Virus record (IMG/VR): IMGVR_UViG_3300020583_000015
Span: 1 to 64,000 of that record
Reading direction: 5' to 3' (one strand)
Length of the DNA: 64,000 nucleotides
From: a virus
Positions 5,167 to 60,612 of the stretch are shown piece by piece. The position numbers and the translations under genes were made by a program. The notes under the pieces are model-generated. The model was not told the origin of the DNA, did not search any database, and saw nothing but the letters and a program-made list of their open reading frames with translations. Every line of letters begins with the position of its first letter. Positions within the stretch are counted from its first letter, which is position 1.

Positions 5167-5303
5167 TTGTGGTCTTGTTGGTGGGAGTAGGTGGTGTGCT
5201 TGGAGGCCTCGCTGAGCTACAGTTCGACGCCTACTCCCACCAACAAGACTGGTACATGGAGAGTGTGATGCAACAGAACGCACATAGGCAGGCTACCAAA
5301 TGA
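5148..5303 (+). CDS. 51-aa membrane protein
   Basis: The ATG lies inside the end of the upstream gene and the TGA overlaps the next ATG (ATGA). Residues 2-21 are hydrophobic, with a run of G and V, predicting one membrane helix; a polar Gln-rich tail follows. Its coding sequence contains a perfect 20-bp inverted repeat. Function is unknown. Confidence 0.65.
   Translation: MLKWLLIVVLLVGVGGVLGGLAELQFDAYSHQQDWYMESVMQQNAHRQATK
5172..5249. repeat. perfect 20-bp inverted repeat inside a gene
   Basis: Bases 5172-5191 are the exact reverse complement of 5230-5249, around a 38-nt loop, and G-U pairs could extend the stem at both ends. It lies wholly within the 51-aa membrane protein gene, so one DNA segment encodes both a strong RNA hairpin and two peptide segments. 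Confidence 0.9.
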
Positions 5304-47022: not shown

Positions 47023-47523
47023 TTAGATGGTGACGTTTGCGCTGATATAGTTGGCAAGATGGAGCCAGTCAGGGCAAGGCAGGCCCGGCTTTGGGGCTTT
47101 TTTCCAAGGCTCCCGAACCCCTGCTACTTCACTAACCAAATCAATAAGAGGAGTATAGGGGTCAATACCAAGGTTACCAGCAACATTGTTACAATACCGA
47201 AGCGGATCATTGTCTGCGTCTCCCACTGGACAATAGATGTTGATTGTTTCGTAGAGGTTCAGGCCTCGTTTGATCTTTGCATCCAGATCATTCTCTAGTG
47301 CCGCCCAACCAATAAGCCAAGAAGGAAACCGACAATAAGGGCCGTCCTTAATGCCCTGCACGAACCTCGTGGGAGCCCACTCCAAATCTCCCGGATTGTT
47401 ATCTCGCTGAGGTCTATTGAGGCCATGAATTGTGCTGTTAAACCACCCTTCCTGTTCCGCAAACGCCAGTGCAAGCCCTACCCGACTAATTTTCTGTGGT
47501 GTGTTGTTTGACAATTCGATCAA
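47023..47523 (-). CDS. lysozyme/transglycosylase-like endolysin
   Basis: The 166 residues show AFAEQEGWF with a candidate catalytic Glu near 23-25, then RDNNPGDLEW, CRFPSWLIGWAALENDL, a YETI helix and DADNDPLRYCNNVA. This NNPG...RF...G..AL pattern recurs in phage lysozyme-like muralytic proteins. No signal peptide is present, so a holin is needed. Its start overlaps the heptose nucleotidyltransferase gene by 38 nt. Confidence 0.68.
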   Translation of the reverse strand: MIELSNNTPQKISRVGLALAFAEQEGWFNSTIHGLNRPQRDNNPGDLEWAPTRFVQGIKDGPYCRFPSWLIGWAALENDLDAKIKRGLNLYETINIYCPVGDADNDPLRYCNNVAGNLGIDPYTPLIDLVSEVAGVREPWKKAPKPGLPCPDWLHLANYISANVTI

Positions 47524-50379: not shown

Positions 50380-50485
50380 ATGGCTCCCAACCCAGTTGAT
50401 CAAGCCAATCTTGGCAATCAACACACATACTCTGATCTGGCTAGTCTGGTATAAACCTCAACCCACAATCGCTACAAATTCGTGA

Positions 50486-50634
50486 ATCACACCCTAATGA
50501 ATTTTGGGGCATCAAAACCCCTTATCACACCCTAATGAAACGTTGATTCCCTAGGGTGTAAACCGACTTTTTCGCAATCACACCCTAATAAACCCCTTTT
50601 ACACCCTAATGAAAGCACCCTCCTAGGGGGTAGG
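50486..50634 (-). promoter_or_regulatory. cluster of TAGGGTGTG repeats (late control region)
   Basis: Four direct copies on the minus strand read TTCATTAGGGTGTGAT or close variants, at about 50486-50500, 50524-50540, 50577-50592 and 50599-50614. An inverted CCTAGGGTGT lies at 50550-50559 and an imperfect palindrome around CCTAGG at 50617-50634. The cluster fills the gap before the heptose/terminase genes. It probably binds a regulator or a phage-specific RNA polymerase form that switches on the late unit. Confidence 0.65.
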
Positions 50635-51999: not shown

Positions 52000-52362
52000 T
52001 TATTTTTCTCCTCTCTTAAGCTTTATGAACGCCACAGCCAGCGCCTCCACAGTCTGCTCCATCTGGGTGTCAGGTAGCTTCAGCGTGTCAATCGCGTCAT
52101 TCCACGGCCAAAGATGGATATGGAGCATCTCATGCACAAGGGTCCCTTCAATATCGCGGTTGATTTCATCCACAGTGTGGAGGTCTAGTGGCGCGAGAAT
52201 CTTGATTGTCGCCTGACGTAGGTTCTGGATTGTGCTGCATTCCCCGCAACATCCCTCCCCAAGGTCGTTGGCCCGAGCAAAGCGGGTGCTGATTCGCCAA
52301 TCCTTAAGCTGGAGTCGGCTTTGCCACTCTCGGCTGAGTTTTGTTAGCTCTCGTGAAGTCAC
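52000..52362 (-). CDS. HExxH metallopeptidase-like protein
   Basis: HEMLH (His77, Glu78, His81) is a zinc-protease motif, with a possible third ligand in EQTVEALA (Glu102 or Glu106). The 120 residues resemble small SprT/minigluzincin-like proteins. CCGEC near 38-42 may add a metal site. The GTG start overlaps the previous TGA (GTGA). The substrate is unknown; host protein cleavage early in infection is one option. Confidence 0.65.
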   Translation of the reverse strand: MTSRELTKLSREWQSRLQLKDWRISTRFARANDLGEGCCGECSTIQNLRQATIKILAPLDLHTVDEINRDIEGTLVHEMLHIHLWPWNDAIDTLKLPDTQMEQTVEALAVAFIKLKRGEK

Positions 52363-52469
52363 TCAAGCACGTCCTTTACAAACTTCGCAATCAACAGCGA
52401 CACAAAAATCGCGCCTATTGACCCCACAAAACACGCCATCATAACTGAAAAGAACTCATCAGGGCTCAT
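52359..52469 (-). CDS. 36-aa membrane micro-peptide
   Basis: The ATG overlaps the stop of the Zn protein (ATGA) and the TGA overlaps the GTG of the metallopeptidase. The helix VMMACFVGSIGAIFVSLLIA spans a membrane, with a basic/acidic FVKDVLE end. Double coupling supports expression. Confidence 0.55.
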   Translation of the reverse strand: MSPDEFFSVMMACFVGSIGAIFVSLLIAKFVKDVLE

Positions 52470-52945: not shown

Positions 52946-53095
52946 CAACCTAAGTCAAATGAAGTACTTCATTTAGCAAAGGGCTCTACGCAATTAATTT
53001 GTAGTTATTTCGAATTAAATTTCGGTAGTAACGATGAGTTTTATAAAAAATTTTTTCTATAATTCGTTTTTTAAGTCCTTTAGATACAGCTAGAT
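52946..53095. other. AT-rich divergent intergenic region
   Basis: About 150 bases much richer in A/T than the rest hold several GAATTAAWTT-like strings and runs such as AAAAAATTTTTT. A TATAAT at 53058-53063 lacks a good -35. It could be an unwinding element of an origin or a bent upstream promoter region. No RNA gene or strong ORF is supported. Confidence 0.4.
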
Positions 53096-53426
53096 AGCGC
53101 CCACACTGGGCATGGGCCATGGCTGCAACAAAGTGACCCGTCCACGTCAACAAACGCATACCTAGACAGACTAGGCATAAGAGGGCTAAGTCCTTTGCTA
53201 TCAACCACATACAAGCCCTCACCACGCGAAGCATGCCCTAGCCTTCAACCAACCATCGCCTACGCCCACGGCCCACGCGCGGATAAATACGATGGCGTTC
53301 ACACCAGCAAACCGCGGCTAACTGCCGTCGAATCAATCGTTTGGCCCGACGGCCCAAATCGGCGCGGCCGATGCAAATGCCGGGCAAAACCAGCCCGACG
53401 AAAGGCAGACGGGACATGAGAAGCGC
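53096..53426 (+). other. hairpin-rich noncoding region
   Basis: Perfect short stems follow one another: GCCCA/TGGGC near 53100, CCTAG/CTAGG near 53161, GAGGGCT (53181-53187) with AGCCCTC (53214-53220), and ATCGGC-GCG-GCCGAT near 53360. A minus-strand frame across 52986-53234 has no ribosome site and is not called. The region is probably transcribed as a long folded 5' UTR, or is an origin. Confidence 0.4.
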
Positions 53427-53489
53427 AACAGACTGTGGTGGTAATAGCTCTACGGGAGTTCGACCACAGCCTGTTAGGCTTATCAGCCT
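53427..53489 (+). promoter_or_regulatory. structured leader 1
   Basis: AACAGACTGTGGT (53427-53439) pairs with ACCACAGCCTGTT (53463-53475) with one mismatch, enclosing a TAATAGCTCT...GGGAG element. An AGGCTTATCAGCCT hairpin follows at 53476-53489. AAAAGGGAG and the ATG at 53507 come next, 17 nt after the last stem. Confidence 0.65.
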
Positions 53490-53506
53490 GAAAAGGGAGA
53501 AACAAC

Positions 53507-53818
53507 ATGGCACTCGATAACGCGAAGATTGACAGTAAGCTCTTTGGGGCAGACGATAGCGCTGCGCCAGAGAAAAACCCGAAGATTGGGGCAACAGCAC
53601 GGTTTGAGGACAACGGCAATGACGTGGTCTTTACCATCAGCGCGAAGATGCCCAGAAAGCAGTTCCTGGAGCATCTCCGTGAGACGAAGACTGGCAACAT
53701 CGGCTTTGAAGTCGTGATAACTGACCCATTCGCAGTCAGCTTCAAGCGGCCTGACGGCACAACCGCCAAGCGTGTCGGTCAGCCCAACTGGCGGGGACTG
53801 TGGGTGACGATCAAGTAG
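53507..53818 (+). CDS. hypothetical 103-aa protein
   Basis: AAAAGGGAG precedes the ATG. The middle is regular beta/alpha (ARFEDNGNDVVFTISAKMPR, then KQFLEHLRETKTGNIGFEVV), ending VGQPNWRGLWVTIK. First gene of the rightward accessory block, behind a folded leader. No family is recognised. Confidence 0.6.
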   Translation: MALDNAKIDSKLFGADDSAAPEKNPKIGATARFEDNGNDVVFTISAKMPRKQFLEHLRETKTGNIGFEVVITDPFAVSFKRPDGTTAKRVGQPNWRGLWVTIK

Positions 53819-53831
53819 CAAGCCAACACCT

Positions 53832-53891
53832 GACGGCATGAGCCGTCCCTCGAATACCACACTCCACACAGCAAGCCTCCTGTGGAGTGTG
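53832..53891 (+). promoter_or_regulatory. structured leader 2
   Basis: GACGGC-ATGA-GCCGTC (53832-53847) is followed by CACACTCCACA (53858-53868) paired perfectly with TGTGGAGTGTG (53881-53891) over a 12-nt loop. TTGGAGG and the ATG at 53911 follow within 19 nt. No T run is present, so it is not an ordinary terminator. Confidence 0.65.
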
Positions 53892-53910
53892 CAGTTGGAG
53901 GTAACACAGC

Positions 53911-54093
53911 ATGACCAACGGCAAGTTCAACAAAGCGGGACTCATTCGTGAGTTCTTTGGGCTTAGCGGTACCGAAGCCATCGCCCAAATCAAGGCCCTA
54001 CCAGAGCCTGACAGATTACAGCTTGGGTCTGCCATCGCTCGGGAGAAGGGCTTGAATCCAGCGGATTTGGATTTTGAGCTCTGCGCTTACTGA
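53911..54093 (+). CDS. hypothetical 60-aa helical protein
   Basis: GGAGG lies 9 nt before the ATG. The sequence (KAGLIREFFGLSGTEAIAQI, then KALPEPDRLQLGSAIAREKG) is all helical and resembles small phage proteins with a winged or SAP-like look, though no family is certain. Confidence 0.6.
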   Translation: MTNGKFNKAGLIREFFGLSGTEAIAQIKALPEPDRLQLGSAIAREKGLNPADLDFELCAY

Positions 54094-54102
54094 ACAGCGC
54101 GC

Positions 54103-54201
54103 TTCGGGGACTCGCTGTACCCCGAACAACAGCCCTAAGCGTTATTAGCTCTTGCAGCCAATGTGGGAGCTAGGCTAGTTAAATCCTAGCGGGCTGTTGT
54201 T
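54103..54201 (+). promoter_or_regulatory. structured leader 3 (nested)
   Basis: TTCGGGG (54103-54109) pairs with CCCCGAA (54120-54126). AACAACAGCCC (54125-54135) pairs perfectly with GGGCTGTTGTT (54191-54201), enclosing AGCTC/GAGCT and GCTAG/CTAGC hairpins: a multi-branch fold. The two main stems share two bases and so may compete. GGAGG starts at the very next base, 54202. Confidence 0.7.
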
Positions 54202-54772
54202 GGAGGTACAGCTTACGAAGACAATCCGAGACATCTCGCAGCTAGAGGCAGCACTCGCCCAAGCTGACAGCATCGTGCGAATCAATCGTGACGAAACGGC
54301 TCGACTAGGCCGTAACCCACGGTTCAACACCACCGTGACGCAAGGCCGTCACATCGCGAAGGTCAAGGGGCATGGTGGGGGCGGAAGCTTTACTCACCGT
54401 CAACGCCAACCGGTGCGAGTCCCACAGGGGTTTTGGAGCAAGTGTCCCACCACGCCCACGCTAGCTGACAGCGGCACGACAGTGCTTGACGATTTGACAG
54501 GGCTAAGGCCTTCAAGCGGCAGCAATCGGGTTTGGTGTGTGATGATTGAGGCTGACGGACATCGGTATGTGGCCTACACCGAAGAATCGCGAAGCGCTTG
54601 TGAAGGCATTGCGGATTGGCTCTGGAGGGTCTACGATCAATCCGTTAACAACCCATGGGGACGAAGCCTAGCACCAGCCTACAAACTCGCCCTAGAGTCT
54701 GCGAAGTTCAACACCGACGTAATGGGCCTGGAGCGAGCAACACACGACTTTGGGGCACGGCAGCTTACCTGA
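54197..54772 (+). CDS. hypothetical protein with unclear start
   Basis: The 191-residue frame has a basic Gly-rich part (KVKGHGGGGSFTHRQRQPVRV) and a C-terminal part with VWCVMIEADGHRYVAYTEES and a helix. The TTG at 54197 lies inside the leader stem, before GGAGG at 54202. Seven to ten bases after GGAGG, where a start should be, there is only CTTACG. Either TTG is used without a good site, or ACG, or a mutated ATG. Confidence 0.55.
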   Translation: MLEVQLTKTIRDISQLEAALAQADSIVRINRDETARLGRNPRFNTTVTQGRHIAKVKGHGGGGSFTHRQRQPVRVPQGFWSKCPTTPTLADSGTTVLDDLTGLRPSSGSNRVWCVMIEADGHRYVAYTEESRSACEGIADWLWRVYDQSVNNPWGRSLAPAYKLALESAKFNTDVMGLERATHDFGARQLT

Positions 54773-54889
54773 AGGGACGCCTTCAGCCCTGTCTGCTGAG
54801 CCTATAAAGTCCACTCTTACCGTTGGCTTAGGGAGAGTGGGCCTCAAATCAAGCCCATGGCCGTCGAATCCTAGGTCGCTGTGGGCTTG
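54769..54889 (+). promoter_or_regulatory. structured leader 4
   Basis: Three perfect stems in a row: CTGAAGG-GACG-CCTTCAG (54769-54786, including the stop codon of the previous gene), CCACTCT/AGAGTGG (54811-54817 with 54834-54840) and CAAGCCCA/TGGGCTTG (54850-54857 with 54882-54889). GGAGG at 54893 and ATG at 54908 follow, 18 nt after the last stem. Confidence 0.65.
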
Positions 54890-54907
54890 TTTGGAGGTAT
54901 GACCCGT

Positions 54908-55090
54908 ATGTACGAAGACTTTGACAGTGCTTACGAAACGATGGTAGCGTATCTGGCTATCATGAACGCGCATGAAGATGAACGCTATGTGCAAAACCCC
55001 CAAGAGTGTGCTATTGACGAATATCGCCAAGAGCCACACGACCACGAAATCGCCGCTTGGGAAGGTGAGGGTGGCGCATGCAACAGCTAA
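54908..55090 (+). CDS. acidic 60-aa protein
   Basis: The ATG at 54908 is 10 nt after GGAGG; the ATG at 54899 is too close to it. The protein (MYEDFDSAYETMVAYLAIMN) is acidic and helical with a C-terminal EGEGGACNS. Its end overlaps the next start. No family is recognised. Confidence 0.55.
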   Translation: MYEDFDSAYETMVAYLAIMNAHEDERYVQNPQECAIDEYRQEPHDHEIAAWEGEGGACNS

Positions 55091-55179
55091 CCCCTGCAAG
55101 CTTTAGCCTTGTTGGGTATTGGATTGGGCTGATGTTTGTGGCCCTGACGATTTATCACGCGCGTTATCCACGCGCTTAA
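55078..55179 (+). CDS. 33-aa membrane micro-peptide
   Basis: The ATG overlaps the end of the acidic gene. The peptide has a hydrophobic helix FSLVGYWIGLMFVALTIY and a basic end HARYPRA. It is coupled and short, like the four-gene cassette downstream. Confidence 0.5.
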   Translation: MQQLTPASFSLVGYWIGLMFVALTIYHARYPRA

Positions 55180-55320
55180 AGAGCTCCTTTGTGAGGGACG
55201 ATCGCACCTGATAGCGATGCTCCGAGCTTTCTCCACTCAATATCACGGATATCATTACCGACACAGGTTTGCCGTATGAGTGTGAGTGGGGAAGGCTAGG
55301 CGCAAGGCGCAAAGCGCCAA
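55180..55320 (+). promoter_or_regulatory. structured leader 5
   Basis: Nested AGCTC/GAGCT (55182-55186 with 55224-55228) and ATCGC/GCGAT (55201-55205 with 55214-55218), then GGCGC-AAA-GCGCC (55306-55318). The ATG at 55330 follows 11 nt later. Stems are shorter than in the other leaders. Confidence 0.45.
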
Positions 55321-55329
55321 ACAACGCTT

Positions 55330-55467
55330 ATGACTACAATACGAATCTTCATAGGTTTGTTCGTGATTGGAGGACTGGTGATGTTTTTGCTGGCCCTCCA
55401 CAACAACGATCCAATCGCAGCAATCGCCTGGGTTTTGTGGGCGAAGTTTTGGAATGAGGCGGTATGA
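55330..55467 (+). CDS. 45-aa membrane micro-protein (cassette 1/4)
   Basis: MTTIRIFIGLFVIGGLVMFL opens a peptide with one long hydrophobic helix and a second amphipathic half (AAIAWVLWAKFW). The stop overlaps the next start (ATGA). First of four coupled micro-ORFs. Confidence 0.6.
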   Translation: MTTIRIFIGLFVIGGLVMFLLALHNNDPIAAIAWVLWAKFWNEAV

Positions 55468-55553
55468 CACCGCCAGAAGTCTTTGTACTGGGGTTTTGTG
55501 TTGGGTGGATGGTTCGTTTCGCCCAGAACATCCTGAGGTGGTTAGGAAAATGA
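55464..55553 (+). CDS. 29-aa membrane micro-peptide (cassette 2/4)
   Basis: MTPPEVFVLGFCVGWMVRFA opens the peptide. It shares length, MTxxE start and FCVG core with the next peptide, so the two look like a tandem duplication. ATGA overlaps on both sides. Confidence 0.6.
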   Translation: MTPPEVFVLGFCVGWMVRFAQNILRWLGK

Positions 55554-55639
55554 CTCTTACCGAGTTGTGCTTGTTAGTGTTTTGTGTCGGTTACATTATA
55601 ACCGATATGATATTACGCATTCGGGATAAATCGGAATGA
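55550..55639 (+). CDS. 29-aa membrane micro-peptide (cassette 3/4)
   Basis: MTLTELCLLVFCVGYIITDM opens the peptide. It aligns without gaps to the preceding 29-aa peptide (M, T, E, L, FCVG conserved), with a charged end RIRDKSE. ATGA overlaps on both sides. Confidence 0.6.
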   Translation: MTLTELCLLVFCVGYIITDMILRIRDKSE

Positions 55640-55776
55640 GCATTCACAAACTCCTCTGTAGGTGGGGCCTGCACTTCCCCCAACGCATTCGTAGCGGCAT
55701 CGCAGGAGATCAGTTTTTGATCCGACGTGACTACAAGCTTTGTGTGGTGTGTCGGAAGTTTTACTTTTGGTATTGA
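55636..55776 (+). CDS. 46-aa basic Cys protein (cassette 4/4)
   Basis: The ATG overlaps the previous stop. The peptide is basic (LCRWGLHFPQRIRSG) with a CVVCRKFYFWY knuckle, and a CxxC pair that could bind zinc. It is not a membrane protein and closes the coupled cassette. Confidence 0.55.
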   Translation: MSIHKLLCRWGLHFPQRIRSGIAGDQFLIRRDYKLCVVCRKFYFWY

Positions 55777-55787
55777 CGCTTACGTCG

Positions 55788-55882
55788 GCTTACGTAAGCT
55801 ACAGCCTGTTTTTGTCCAATGCCCAAGCCTTGCCTCCCGGTAAGCCATAATAGACTGCCGGGAGGCGTTTTCCCCGAACAGG
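55788..55882 (+). promoter_or_regulatory. palindrome and structured leader 6
   Basis: GCTTACGTAAGC (55788-55799) is a perfect palindrome sharing its core with 51047. Then CCTGTT (55805-55810) pairs with AACAGG (55877-55882) around an inner GCCTCCCGG/CCGGGAGGC stem (55832-55840 with 55858-55866). AACAGGAG contains the ribosome site, so the outer stem would hide it until opened. ATG at 55891. Confidence 0.65.
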
Positions 55883-55890
55883 AGCAAACG

Positions 55891-56367
55891 ATGGCTCATG
55901 GATTTTTAGTAAAAACTTCAGCATTTACATACCCAGACGGGTATAAAGCCCCAGCTTACGAAAGGTTCAAGCACCTTAAGTCTGAGCCTGACTTTGGCGA
56001 TGACTGGGGTCAACGTGAAGCGATGGCTGACCAAACCGCATCCATCGACTACGGATGTGATTTTCGCGACGGACAGTGCAAAGCCCAACGCTCCACCAAA
56101 GCTCAACAGGATATAGAAAGCTGGTGCTGTGGTCCGATGGGATGTTGCATTAGGTGTGCGTCTGCTGTTGGCTATCTTGACGCACTTCCAGCATACGCGT
56201 TAAAGGCTGTAGCAAGGCTATGGAGTACCAAAACAGGTTTCTGGCGCAAATCCAAAGGCTGTGTATTGCCGCGTAAATGGCGTTCACACACGTGCCTTGG
56301 CTTCACCTGTAGCGTGATTCCCCGCAAGCCAGTTCAAGACAAACTAGTTCAGATTGGGGTATTGTGA
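55891..56367 (+). CDS. Cys-rich protein with GCxLPxxxRSxTCL motif
   Basis: AGGAG is 6 nt before the ATG. The 158 residues hold CCGPMGCCIRC and, near the end, GCVLPRKWRSHTCLGFTC, a pattern shared with uncharacterised Cys-rich proteins of bacteria and phages. At least ten cysteines suggest zinc or Fe-S binding. The stop overlaps the next start by one base. Confidence 0.6.
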   Translation: MAHGFLVKTSAFTYPDGYKAPAYERFKHLKSEPDFGDDWGQREAMADQTASIDYGCDFRDGQCKAQRSTKAQQDIESWCCGPMGCCIRCASAVGYLDALPAYALKAVARLWSTKTGFWRKSKGCVLPRKWRSHTCLGFTCSVIPRKPVQDKLVQIGVL

Positions 56368-56537
56368 TGCTAAAGCGTTGGTGGGCAAGGCGTAAACTAC
56401 GTCAGCTTGGTTGGTGTCTGATTCACAACATCAAAATGAACGATTGGGGGTGTTGTGACAAATGCGATGAAGCTGTTTGGAGAGCCGCTGCCGCAAAACG
56501 CCAACACGACATCGACAAATATCGGACTTGGTTATGA
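56367..56537 (+). CDS. 56-aa Zn-type protein
   Basis: TGATG links it to the previous gene and ATGA to the next. The sequence has a basic start (RWWARRKLRQLGW) and a C/H cluster (CLIHN, WGCCDKCDEAVW). This frame, not the overlapping one from 56455, is supported by coupling at both ends. Confidence 0.6.
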   Translation: MLKRWWARRKLRQLGWCLIHNIKMNDWGCCDKCDEAVWRAAAAKRQHDIDKYRTWL

Positions 56538-56635
56538 CGTCACCAATGTTTGCCTGTCCAATTTGTTTTGGAGTCATCAGCCTCGTAACGTTAGCGCTAA
56601 AGTGGCTTCACACACGCTTAAGGAGATTCTTATGA
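56534..56635 (+). CDS. 33-aa membrane micro-peptide
   Basis: ATGA overlap on both sides. CPICFGVISLVTLALKWLH is a membrane helix with a CPIC pair, then a basic tail LRRF. AAGGAG for the next gene lies in its last codons. Confidence 0.55.
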   Translation: MTSPMFACPICFGVISLVTLALKWLHTRLRRFL

Positions 56636-56799
56636 GTTCTCACGACAGACCCAAACCTCACAAACGCGTTAACCGAAGTGCTCGCCTAAAGCGTCCTAAC
56701 CGGCGCTGCCCGACCTGCACCAACGCAGTCAGCACCCCACATGAAGAGTGGTGTAACTATTGGAAACAGCTCCAAACGGAAATGAGGGGCTTAAAATGA
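56632..56799 (+). CDS. 55-aa basic Zn-type protein
   Basis: AAGGAG and an ATGA overlap support the ATG at 56632. A very basic N-terminus (KPHKRVNRSARLKRPNRR) is followed by CPTCTNAVSTPHEEWC, a CCHC zinc site. Nucleic-acid binding is likely. Confidence 0.6.
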   Translation: MSSHDRPKPHKRVNRSARLKRPNRRCPTCTNAVSTPHEEWCNYWKQLQTEMRGLK

Positions 56800-56993
56800 C
56801 TCGCGACTACCTGATTGCCGCAATTGACCAAAATCTCACTCGCCGCTACAAAATGGTAGGGCGTGTGAATGCTGCTGAGCGCAAAGTGTGGCTCACAGAA
56901 TACAAGCAGCTCCAAGCCCAACTAAAAGCTGCTTCAACACCAACGCAAAACCTGATTGATGAAACACTGGAGGCTTCAAATGAAGCGCACTAA
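56796..56993 (+). CDS. 65-aa coiled-coil protein
   Basis: ATGA overlap with the previous gene. The sequence (RYKMVGRVNAAERKVWLTEY, then KQLQAQLKAA) is a continuous charged helix, likely a coiled coil. No family is recognised. Confidence 0.55.
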   Translation: MTRDYLIAAIDQNLTRRYKMVGRVNAAERKVWLTEYKQLQAQLKAASTPTQNLIDETLEASNEAH

Positions 56994-57061
56994 CGCTAAC
57001 AATCCTAGCTAACAATTGACGACGGCCCGGCAACATCGAGACTCTTTTGTGTTTTGCCTAC

Positions 57062-57109
57062 CGCACTTACTCCAACGGCTGCCAACATTGGTGCACTGTG
57101 GTGAGTGCG
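57062..57109 (+). promoter_or_regulatory. structured leader 7
   Basis: CGCACTTAC (57062-57070) pairs with GTGAGTGCG (57101-57109) through nine pairs including one G-U. GGGGAG follows, and the ATG at 57130 is 20 nt after the stem. This fits the spacing of the other leaders. Confidence 0.5.
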
Positions 57110-57129
57110 TGAGGGGAGAGCACAAACAA

Positions 57130-57279
57130 ATGAAAGTCTACATTGTTGTGTCTGACGGTAGACCAGCTCCAGGAGTGAACGTCGAGGCTGTGTTTATCAA
57201 CAAAGAAACAGCTCAAGCCTGGATTGATTGGCATACTTTCGCAGGGACCGTTACAATTCAAGAATGGAGGCTTCAGTGA
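57130..57279 (+). CDS. 49-aa hypothetical protein
   Basis: The sequence (YIVVSDGRPAPGVNVEAVF, then helix KETAQAWIDWHTF, then VTIQEWRLQ) shows a beta-alpha-beta layout as in small phage proteins that pair strand and helix. Codons near the end encode GGAGG for the next gene, whose GTG overlaps the stop. Confidence 0.55.
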   Translation: MKVYIVVSDGRPAPGVNVEAVFINKETAQAWIDWHTFAGTVTIQEWRLQ

Positions 57280-57521
57280 CCATCTCAGTCGCTAACCAAC
57301 GTGCGCTAGAGACACTGCTCGCAACTACCCCAACAGAAATTGTGTTGAGTGAAATTGCAGCGCACTGTCGCTCACTGGCCAAAACCGAACGGGAGTTGTG
57401 GGACAACACATCGCGCGCCACAGCTTACGAAAACACTGCGGAGTGGTTGCAAGCTTCGACTCGGTTGTTACCAACCTACAACTGCAAGCGGGATGTTGAG
57501 TGTGATTCGTTGGGAGGCTAA
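57276..57521 (+). CDS. 81-aa helical protein
   Basis: GGAGG and a GTGA overlap fix the GTG start. Helices ALETLLATTPTEIVLSEIAA and RELWDNTSRATAYENTAEWL make up the body, with a CKRDVEC end. No family is recognised. Confidence 0.55.
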   Translation: MTISVANQRALETLLATTPTEIVLSEIAAHCRSLAKTERELWDNTSRATAYENTAEWLQASTRLLPTYNCKRDVECDSLGG

Positions 57522-57525
57522 CGGT

Positions 57526-57735
57526 ATGTTCTTTGATTTTATTGCTGACCTCATTGACGATCACTTCATTGCAACCATTGTTGTGATTGTCGTGCTGTTT
57601 GGGAGTGGTGTGTGGTGGTATGAAAGCGCCCATCCCTGCCTGAAGTACAGCCCAACCAAAACTTTGCAGTACATGCAACAGGTAGGAAATGTAATAATTC
57701 CTGTTTACGGACATGATTGTCTTGAAAGGAAATAA
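57526..57735 (+). CDS. 69-aa membrane protein
   Basis: GGGAGG is 9 nt before the ATG at 57526. One membrane helix (FIATIVVIVVLFGSGVWWY) follows an acidic start (FIADLIDDH), with a C-terminal ~40-residue soluble part containing two Cys. It is probably an inner-membrane protein. Confidence 0.6.
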   Translation: MFFDFIADLIDDHFIATIVVIVVLFGSGVWWYESAHPCLKYSPTKTLQYMQQVGNVIIPVYGHDCLERK

Positions 57736-57738
57736 GCT

Positions 57739-57930
57739 ATGTACAACATCGAATACTTCGAGCCATCCGACGACAAATGGCATCATCTTGGGACGCCCCT
57801 TACAAACAAATCCGACATCGGGCGTAGCCTCGCCAACTACGCGGTTTGGATGCCAACAGAAACCTTCCGGGTGATGACTCCACGCTTCACCGCGCCAATT
57901 ATGAGCGTTCAGCCCAAGGCGGCACTGTAA
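57739..57930 (+). CDS. 63-aa hypothetical protein
   Basis: GAAAGGAAA precedes the ATG. The small protein (YNIEYFEPSDDKWHHLGTPL) has strand-helix-strand character similar to other short right-arm proteins. No family is recognised. Confidence 0.55.
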   Translation: MYNIEYFEPSDDKWHHLGTPLTNKSDIGRSLANYAVWMPTETFRVMTPRFTAPIMSVQPKAAL

Positions 57931-57931
57931 G

Positions 57932-58108
57932 ATGTACGTGATACTTTCACGAAACAACAGAAATCATGGGTACTTGATTGGAAAGTTTGTGTTTGAGAGT
58001 CGGGCTGACGCATTCAAGTGGCGCGCGGCCCACCACTTTCAAGCAAGAGCAATCATCAAGCGGCTGAAGGTCTTTAGGGATCTTTCGAAGGTAGCCACCG
58101 TCAGTTGA
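57932..58108 (+). CDS. 58-aa basic protein
   Basis: It starts 1 nt after the previous stop. The sequence (MYVILSRNNRNHGYLIGKFV, then FESRADAFKWRAAHH and IIKRLKVF) has the strand-then-helix pattern of its two neighbours and a strongly basic charge. It may be a divergent duplicate of the 57739 gene. Confidence 0.55.
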   Translation: MYVILSRNNRNHGYLIGKFVFESRADAFKWRAAHHFQARAIIKRLKVFRDLSKVATVS

Positions 58109-58113
58109 GATTT

Positions 58114-58242
58114 GTGCTTTGTAAGCCCTCGTTCAAAACCAACACCCACCCCAACATGCCGCCATCAACAACACGCTAAGCGTGCGTATGGTGCTGTTGC
58201 CCAACTTTAGATGTTGCAAGTGAGTGGGGGCTTACAAAACAC
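58114..58242 (+). promoter_or_regulatory. structured leader 8 (129-nt nested RNA fold)
   Basis: GTGCTTTGTAAGCCC (58114-58128) pairs with GGGCTTACAAAACAC (58228-58242), 14 of 15 bases. Inside, CAACAT (58152-58157) pairs with ATGTTG (58211-58216), CAACA (58166-58170) with TGTTG (58195-58199) and CACGC with GCGTG (58172-58176 with 58180-58184). These nest without conflict. GGAG and the ATG at 58263 follow. Confidence 0.72.
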
Positions 58243-58262
58243 AAACAAAAACGGAGACTTAC

Positions 58263-58646
58263 ATGAACACACCTATTATCGAGCCCTGGAGACCTACAGC
58301 TATCTCAGTTACTGAGGTGTATGGAGAGAACTTTCATCCGCCCTCAGGTTATGAACTAACTGGAGAATTCCGCCCAGCTGCGGGCATGGAGTTGTGGTTG
58401 GATCAAGACACCGGCACACAAGTAAACAACTGGGCTACACACGGACCCCGTTTGATTCTCCGCAAAATCCAACCTCGGAAACGAGTGTTTATGGAACATT
58501 CTCGGTTCAAGGTGGGCGAAGCGGTGGCGGGGCCGTGTTACTACAGCTTTGATTATTCAGACAACAAAGCTATATACTTTAACTCGTTTGGGTTGATGCA
58601 CCCTAATCATAATGGGGTTCGTTGGACACTCCAAGAGGAGGAATAA
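58263..58646 (+). CDS. hypothetical 127-aa protein
   Basis: GGAG is 6 nt before the ATG at 58263. The protein is mostly beta (SGYELTGEFRPAAGMELWLD, GPRLILRKIQPRKRVFMEHS), resembling small phage proteins of unknown role. It is separated from the amidoligase genes by three small genes. Confidence 0.55.
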   Translation: MNTPIIEPWRPTAISVTEVYGENFHPPSGYELTGEFRPAAGMELWLDQDTGTQVNNWATHGPRLILRKIQPRKRVFMEHSRFKVGEAVAGPCYYSFDYSDNKAIYFNSFGLMHPNHNGVRWTLQEEE

Positions 58647-58650
58647 CACC

Positions 58651-58764
58651 GTGCTTTCTCCTCATGACGAACATGTGATGTTGGCGCTGTTTCTGAGCGC
58701 GATTCTCGCCACAATTGCCGCGTGTATGTGGATGTTGAAGCTATTGAGAGTGCTGCCATTATGA
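58651..58764 (+). CDS. 37-aa membrane micro-peptide
   Basis: AGGAGG is 7 nt before the GTG, a strong site. Almost all of the peptide is hydrophobic (VMLALFLSAILATIAACMWM). The stop overlaps the next ATG (ATGA). Confidence 0.55.
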   Translation: MLSPHDEHVMLALFLSAILATIAACMWMLKLLRVLPL

Positions 58765-58910
58765 AACGCCTTGCGAAGCTCACACCACTTGAGCACCGAA
58801 TCTACACCCATGTGGTTGAGGCGTTTGTCCGAAGCGCGCAAGAGCCTCCGAAGACTCAACGTCACCTGGCGAAAGCAGCCCGAAAGATCGCGAAGATTGT
58901 TGGAGACTGA
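58761..58910 (+). CDS. 49-aa basic helical protein
   Basis: ATGA overlap with the membrane peptide. The sequence (LAKLTPLEHRIYTHVVEAFV, RHLAKAARKIAKIVG) has two amphipathic basic helices, like a small DNA-binding domain (compare LTPLEHRIY of response regulator-like helices). Tentative. Confidence 0.5.
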   Translation: MKRLAKLTPLEHRIYTHVVEAFVRSAQEPPKTQRHLAKAARKIAKIVGD

Positions 58911-58915
58911 CGATC

Positions 58916-59323
58916 ATGTACAAATGCAGCCTTTGTCAAGCAGATGTAACAGCCAGAGAAAAAGAATGCTACACAACCCTTACTGGGGATGTTGTTTGTA
59001 ACTGTGGAGAGGTGTTGTGGAAAGTTTGGACGCTAGGGAAAGGCGGTTGTGTTCGAGGATTCGCCTCGAACAAAGCGATCTATATCGAAACCGACCCAGC
59101 ACGAATTGCTGCAGACGCCTGGCGCGCTGCCCAAGAGGTTGCTAAGAGGAAAGCCGAAGAGCTTTTCAGACAAAAACTCACTTCCCAACCCCAACACACC
59201 CAAGACATCTACGAAAAACTTGAGGCAATGTTGTGGGAACTTAACATCGCGGAAGGCTCCCACATCGACACGGACATCCTGTTAAGGGTTGCGATTGACA
59301 TCGCTACTCTTGGCGAAGGCTAA
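58916..59323 (+). CDS. Zn-ribbon protein with helical C-terminus
   Basis: CSLCQADV and CNCGEVLW form a zinc ribbon in the first 35 residues of 135; a long helix (AADAWRAAQEVAKRKAEELF) and a C-terminal helical pair follow. It is adjacent to and upstream of the first amidoligase. Confidence 0.55.
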   Translation: MYKCSLCQADVTAREKECYTTLTGDVVCNCGEVLWKVWTLGKGGCVRGFASNKAIYIETDPARIAADAWRAAQEVAKRKAEELFRQKLTSQPQHTQDIYEKLEAMLWELNIAEGSHIDTDILLRVAIDIATLGEG

Positions 59324-59328
59324 CAATC

Positions 59329-60612
59329 ATGCAAATCACCACTTTCAAAGAACTTCAGGCGTTGCCGCCAAACACGCTGGTTAACTCACCGATTTGTGGG
59401 AATATTCTGATTGAGTCCCCAGCTCACGCTTTTAAAGACGGCACTAACATTCGCCTGTCTGGTTATCCTGAACAATCTGTTGGGCGAAGAGGGTATGTGG
59501 TTACTCTCAGTAAAACCTACCCATTTGAGGTAATTCAAGACCCAAAACGGACAGAAAAAATCCTGGCAATCATCTCAAAACTCGGCAGCACCAACCATCT
59601 GCCAAGATCCAGTGAATTCACCTCCTACTACAGCGGTTGTGATCCTGAGATTTTTGTGACTGACGCCGCTGGCGAAGTGATCCCCGCGTGGACATTTTTG
59701 CCGTCGAAGGACAAAAAGGCCTTCAGCAGTGCGTTTTGGGACGGCTTCCAAGCGGAGTTCACACCCCCTCCAAACAGTTGTGTGTCGTTTCTTACAGACA
59801 GCGTTCGACAGGGGTTGGTAGTGGTGTTGAATGCGGCTACCAAAACTAACGCCGGTGCGAAGCTCACACCTGCCCCTTGCCTTCCAGTGTCAAGGGAACT
59901 CCTTGCGACTGGCGCAGACGAACACATCCAATTTGGCTGTAATCCCTCCTTCAACGCCTACGATAGTTGTGGGGTTGGGGTTGAGGGGCGGGATCTGGCT
60001 TGGCGGTTTGCAGGGTCACACAAACATTTCGGCCTGAAAGGCCTAGGTCTCACTCAAGAAACCGCAATACCAATTGTCAAGACCCTTGATAAAATCTATG
60101 GAGTGACGACAGTCAGCTTGTTTGGGGATCTTGACAGCCCCATCCGAAGGCTCTACTACGGACGCGCTGGTGAGTATCGGCTTCCATCCCATGGCCTGGA
60201 GTATCGAACTATTAGCAGCATTGATCTTTGTCATCCAGCGATCTACCACCTGAGTTGGGATCTAGCGCGGATGGCACTTCATCTCTACCTTCATGGGTTG
60301 CAAGACCAATGGAGCTGTTCTGACGACGAAGCCCAGGACATCATCAACAACTGTGATACAGACGGCTCCAGAAAGGTGTTGCAGCGTAACAAACCAATGC
60401 TGATGGACTTGCTCAACAACATCTACAACAACGGCTACAGCGGTGGAGACAAGTCTCTCAAAGCCTACAACACCATCACAAACAGCCTGAAGGCTTTTGT
60501 GGCTGATCCGTTTGATGTCGCTAATAACTGGCATCTTGCAGGTGGTTGGACAAGCCACACTAACAACAACGCTTATGACTTTGCACACGCCCCGGCGGAG
60601 GTGGTGTGGTAG
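59329..60612 (+). CDS. phiEco32-type amidoligase (COOH-NH2 ligase type 2)
   Basis: The 427 residues match the phage COOH-NH2 ligase family of the glutamine-synthetase fold. After an N-terminal ~95-residue beta domain come YYSGCDPEIFVTDAAGEVIP (Asp105, Glu107), QAEFTPPPN (Glu143), FAGSHKHFGL (228-237) and GEYRLPSHGLEYRT (281-294), which supply metal and ATP ligands. Such enzymes link carboxyl and amino groups to modify peptides or proteins. Two more amidoligase-family genes follow. No GAT-II or ATP-grasp partner is visible. Confidence 0.82.
   Translation: MQITTFKELQALPPNTLVNSPICGNILIESPAHAFKDGTNIRLSGYPEQSVGRRGYVVTLSKTYPFEVIQDPKRTEKILAIISKLGSTNHLPRSSEFTSYYSGCDPEIFVTDAAGEVIPAWTFLPSKDKKAFSSAFWDGFQAEFTPPPNSCVSFLTDSVRQGLVVVLNAATKTNAGAKLTPAPCLPVSRELLATGADEHIQFGCNPSFNAYDSCGVGVEGRDLAWRFAGSHKHFGLKGLGLTQETAIPIVKTLDKIYGVTTVSLFGDLDSPIRRLYYGRAGEYRLPSHGLEYRTISSIDLCHPAIYHLSWDLARMALHLYLHGLQDQWSCSDDEAQDIINNCDTDGSRKVLQRNKPMLMDLLNNIYNNGYSGGDKSLKAYNTITNSLKAFVADPFDVANNWHLAGGWTSHTNNNAYDFAHAPAEVVW

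Follow-up and report, generated by a model that had tools for sequence, protein, structure and literature searches.

Phage small proteins have reportedly been treated as a class by Fremin et al. in 2022. The four ORFs considered here, p1–p4, resemble the phage small proteins covered by a review (PMC11323111) in being shorter than 100 aa, poorly annotated and situated in a probable early or accessory region; they differ from the described families in having no detectable homology and in being linked as a string. Among co-oriented prokaryotic genes, an overlap of 4 nt is one of the most frequent spacings; genes joined in this way are coupled by termination–reinitiation and are over-represented among those for heteromeric complexes (PMC10666635, PMC6728339). 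The ATGA-overlap gene pairs described there share with p1–p4 the 4-nt overlap, the co-orientation and an internal Shine–Dalgarno (SD) site at some junctions; here, in contrast, four consecutive ORFs of <50 codons are joined, two of them are paralogous, and the coupling is putative.

YohP, a bacterial protein of 27 aa with a single TM segment, is known to insert in the membrane (PMC7549839). p2 and p3 are likened to YohP by their similar length and by having one hydrophobic segment; they differ in being phage-encoded, tandemly duplicated and furnished with a charged amphipathic tail.

A string of four overlapping ORFs

The window, i.e. the whole stretch of DNA analyzed, covers 64,000 of the 69,667 bases of the virus record. 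Structural genes occupy its minus strand from ∼12 to 53 kb, while the plus strand carries replication and accessory genes on both sides of the structural block. The string of four ORFs lies just within the plus-strand block that begins near 53.4 kb; judging by this position, the region is probably early. Resemblance to named phages is remote: the match of the DNA polymerase has ∼25% identity, and the portal matched one record with 22% identity. Capsid identity to uncultivated relatives from IMG/VR is mostly 61–75%, and gene order is common to the phage and these relatives over most of the genome. Scans of IMG/VR with the neighboring 158-aa and 191-aa proteins found no close relatives of the p1–p4 region, and a search for near DNA matches to the region among phage records came back empty. 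When bacterial and archaeal genomes were scanned for the capsid, a single distant match came up, in a contig of a Thioglobus MAG, unusable as an indication of the host.

Several other elements of the window were recorded as well. A COOH-NH2 ligase gene (PF14395, 59329–60612), present in several relatives, adjoins an amidoligase gene (PF12224, 60752–61564). A perfect 20-nt inverted repeat with a 38-nt spacer is located at 5172–5249, and ACACCCTAATGAA-like motifs are repeated, in direct and inverted orientation, in a short minus-strand intergenic stretch (50480–50620). On the same strand, a 36-aa hydrophobic ORF (52359–52469) has 4-nt overlaps with its upstream neighbor and with the downstream gene; the latter (52000–52362) codes for an HExxH protein with a weak SprT-like match.

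A sequence-only reading of the window had described a cassette of genes of 45, 29, 29 and 46 codons with ATGA at every junction. All four ORFs are present (Table 1), and the three ATGA junctions were confirmed in the sequence; a 4-nt stop/start overlap joins each consecutive co-oriented pair from p1 to p4. As a stand-alone cassette of four the description did not hold, since p0 precedes the string, sharing 13 nt with the end of the ORF upstream of it, and p4 is followed by the 158-aa gene and then by a second string with four [AG]TGA junctions. Products of the second string have about 56, 33, 55 and 65 aa; CxxC is present in its first three ORFs, and the 33-mer combines CPIC with a TM segment.

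Table 1. Coordinates of the micro-ORFs and of the leader element
Feature	Position	Strand	Description
p0	55078–55179	+	33-aa ORF, one hydrophobic segment; good SD (duplex −8.0)
Leader hairpin before p1	55218–55304	+	Long; arms 55218–55239 / 55283–55304; 150-nt leader
p1	55330–55467	+	45-aa ORF; predicted two-helix hairpin, strong first TM segment
p2	55464–55553	+	29 aa; FVLGFCVGW core (GxxxG), amphipathic basic tail; ATGA link to p1
p3	55550–55639	+	29-aa p2 paralogue; LLVFCVGY core, charged tail; ATGA link to p2; good SD
p4	55636–55776	+	46 aa, basic, non-hydrophobic; C-x4-H ... C-x2-C; ATGA link to p3
Second coupled string	56364–56993	+	Starts 56364/56367, 56534, 56632, 56796

Could such a chain arise by chance? 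When the 5.9-kb segment 53401–59330 was dinucleotide-shuffled 3,000 times, six of the products contained a chain with three or more ATGA junctions and no ORF shorter than 25 codons. The same segment has seven ATGA junctions against a shuffled mean of 1.5, a number reached in none of the 3000 shuffles. On the scale of the whole plus strand, 28% of shuffles contained a chain of three [AG]TGA junctions; thus, the chain alone is weak genome-wide evidence, and the similarity of p2 and p3 is the stronger fact.

For each of p1–p4 the annotated frame has the top coding score of the three forward frames, weakly for p2 and p3, whose codon scores are low (0.1 and −5.7 nats, respectively). SD strength, to be read against a random median of −2.4 and a 5% tail of −6.8 kcal/mol for the duplex, is good at p3 and at ATG 55381 of p1, moderate at p2 and weak at p4. 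Searches of Pfam, NCBIfam and PHROGs gave no significant family match for any of p1–p4, and Rfam gave nothing within 53000–59400. We consider the segment, with moderate confidence, to be a genuine protein-coding micro-operon, in the plus-strand accessory and probably early region of this uncultivated phage, that acts at the host membrane.

The peptides and the leader of the string

The proposal that peptides 2 and 3 are tandem duplicates was borne out. Their similarity has a z of 9.9 against shuffles; none of 1000 gapped and none of 20000 ungapped shuffled comparisons was as good, and the pattern MTxxE, then FCVG and a charged end, fits both 29-mers. The resemblance starts exactly at the first Met (ATG) of both, and identical residues are often encoded by differing codons (position matches, 12/16/8 of 29): T by ACA/ACT, E by GAA/GAG, L by CTG/TTA, V by GTT/GTC, G by GGG/GGT and R by AGG/CGG. 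Similarity from the first Met together with synonymous codon changes indicates an old duplication kept at the protein level.

The assignment to membrane peptides stood in part. Hydropathy gives p1 a strong TM segment and p3 a borderline one; the case is weaker for p2, in which a basic tail of strong amphipathicity (moment 0.87) comes after a short hydrophobic stretch (a marginal TM segment), and it fails for p4, which has no TM segment.

The start of p1 can be placed at either of two codons. ATG 55330 sits after two hairpins and is without an SD site (−0.1 kcal/mol); the in-frame ATG 55381 has GGAGG 7 nt upstream (duplex −9.3 kcal/mol). As this SD site serves ATG 55381 only, p1 may be 28 aa long rather than 45, and the short form may read MFLLALHNNDPIAAIAWVLWAKFWNEAV. 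The AlphaFold2 model of p1 is a hairpin; speaking for the long form, its first 24 residues are a confident helix in the structure prediction. A candidate homology of p1 to TM ORFs of relatives G003 and G010 (z 2.5 and 2.1) was rejected as generic hydrophobicity.

The region of the long leader hairpin has a folding MFE of −61.3 (z −4.4), and a second hairpin, GGCGC-AAA-GCGCC, stands between it and ATG 55330, directly 5′ of the latter. A 7-codon ORF (MSVSGEG, 55278–55301) within the hairpin 5′ of p1 is a possible leader peptide.

Long hairpins were also seen in the leaders of three successive plus-strand ORFs, at 53848–53901, 54114–54212 and 54842–54897 (folding z −4.7, −5.1 and −1.4, respectively). 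In all three the stem is closed by GGAGG pairing with CCTC or CCCC, which would sequester the SD; possibly, these elements are riboregulators or RNase processing sites. The 191-aa ORF (54197–54772) has no ATG or GTG just past its SD; near the GGAGG there is only TTG 54197, inside the hairpin, or ACG 54215. G001 has a perfect 22-nt inverted repeat (L020, 9476–9626) after its homologue of the 60-aa gene, in a relative position matching that of the 22-nt repeat at 54114–54212 of the window, with no gene start directly after it.

The Cys/His residues of p4 are C8, H13, C36 and C39. Its AlphaFold2 model, made with no alignment, has pLDDT 58, and Pfam gave no match. Matches of p4 in phage records all had E of at least 1; the only one spanning most of p4, located inside SadLad gp9 (a 118-codon gene, E 8), was rejected as chance. 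The match of p4 to a 41-mer of G001 was likewise dropped, being no better than shuffles.

Counterparts in related phages

Excess of [AG]TGA junctions was also found in accessory regions of several relatives, for example 20 versus 4.9, 20 versus 5.3, 19 versus 7.4 and 16 versus 5.3. Small genes are duplicated there too, in tandem or locally: G005 has two coiled-coil-like ORFs, G019 has four paralogues, G009 and G021 have pairs, and in G001 the 158-aa gene is present twice. A micro-protein with the motif E(F/Y)LFCPxHGV recurs in accessory regions of G003, G005, G009 and G017, with [AG]TGA coupling in G003, G009 and G017.

Two relatives have micro-ORFs comparable to p1–p4. In G001, the homologues of the two flanking genes (60 aa and 158 aa) enclose, in the same place as here, a 27-aa membrane peptide and, after it, a 41-aa peptide containing C-x2-C and a Cys/His pair. 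G003 has a 24-aa hydrophobic peptide with a strong SD, then ATGA-linked 38-aa TM and CxxC ORFs; no shared flanking genes were seen around these micro-ORFs. The same flanking gene pair is thus found in one relative and the ATGA linkage in another.

Among 14,890 ORFs, the best match of p3 outside its own genome is the G003 peptide (E 1.2), whose own best foreign match is p2 (E about 1). With a profile of p2 and p3 as query the G003 peptide ranked seventh (E 2.2), and the G001 27-mer was outside the best eight. A profile of all four sequences (p2, p3 and the G001 and G003 peptides) produced impressive E-values but was circular, and these were gone under leave-one-out, where the G001 and G003 peptides were not recovered significantly. 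Searches by tblastn with p2 and with the G001 27-mer were both empty. The G001 27-mer matches positions 1–23 of phrog_17204 (a 49-position PHROG of unknown function) with E 3.8e-4; p2 and p3 have no match to this family. We take homology of p2/p3 to the G001 and G003 peptides to be suggestive; that of p1 and p4 to peptides of relatives is not established.

The sequence-only reading had pointed to related phages as the place to look for the same string of overlaps. What recurs is membrane plus Cys/His micro-ORFs in accessory regions; homology at the profile level was not significant. As similar strings recur in relatives, p1–p4 look like real, fairly ordinary accessory phage genes. In its arrangement, the string is an extreme but still normal case of how accessory genes are packed in phages.

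Possible roles and alternatives

What follows for p1–p4 is inferred throughout, from translation and coupling through membrane insertion and zinc binding to complex formation and function. Ribosomes would load at p1, with ATG 55381 a likelier entry point than 55330, as well as at internal SD sites, which vary in strength; p2, p3 and p4 would be translated by termination–reinitiation at the ATGA overlaps, giving roughly matched amounts. SD support falling from the second ATG of p1 and from p3 to p2 and p4 suggests that ribosomes load mainly at one site and reinitiate along the string. p1 would form a short helical hairpin in the host inner membrane; p2 and p3 would be held in this membrane by short hydrophobic segments, with charged cytoplasmic tails, and the two could associate mutually. 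p4 would be a basic, zinc-knuckle-like (Cys/His) cytosolic partner. Most likely, the set would alter a host membrane process early in infection, in host takeover or exclusion; no other guess is as economical as such an early role at the host membrane. The roles put forward by the sequence-only reading, a pore, a block to superinfection or an altered host membrane, are guesses as well.

Exclusion of other phages is plausible as a special case of this role. Taken as a specific claim, namely that p1–p3 in the inner membrane keep a second phage genome from entering, p4 being accessory, it is unlikely: small membrane proteins in a probable early arm agree with it, and turnover and duplication of small genes across the relatives' regions fit phage–phage conflict, but the argument is indirect, and Pfam, NCBIfam and PHROGs revealed no resemblance to known exclusion proteins. 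One could also speculate that p1–p4 belong to a recurring, fast-evolving module of the lineage, in which ATGA-coupled membrane and Cys/His micropeptides, made in matched amounts, form a heteromeric membrane complex reprogramming the host envelope early; we think this quite doubtful.

Other frames of the same segment are open and ATGA-linked, so that the chain could instead consist of a 62-codon ORF starting with TTG (55269–55457), a 61-codon ORF (55454–55639), of which p3 is also the C-terminus, and p4. The coding score of the 62-codon ORF is positive; still, SD sites are absent or poor (0.4 at TTG 55269 and −2.8 at ATG 55454), the alternative peptides have no convincing match in relatives, and the similarity between p2 and p3 begins precisely at their own ATGs, which makes this arrangement very unlikely.

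A lysis cassette, with p1 as a holin-like protein and p2/p3 as its regulators, is still less probable. A holin would be expected as a TM hairpin beside an endolysin; p1 is indeed predicted to be a short hydrophobic helical hairpin, but the only endolysin-like gene (47023–47523, weak PHROGs matches) is ∼8 kb away, on the opposite strand and among structural genes, which disfavors lysis. No endolysin or spanin gene was recognized adjoining p1–p4. That the ORFs are largely fortuitous and the region a structured, non-coding leader is equally improbable: the block has strong hairpins around it and chains this long occur in some whole-strand shuffles, but the p2/p3 paralogy with synonymous codon changes, the SD sites and the excess of ATGA junctions all speak against it.

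Returning to a coding micro-operon that acts at the host membrane, the string, if translated, shows how much of an early phage region can be made up of proteins of <50 residues, and that such proteins duplicate in tandem as larger genes do. It offers a compact system in which translational coupling, and the effects of membrane micropeptides on the host, could be studied. The comparison with relatives suggests that turnover of accessory micro-ORFs is so fast that synteny and junction structure outweigh sequence homology as a signal.
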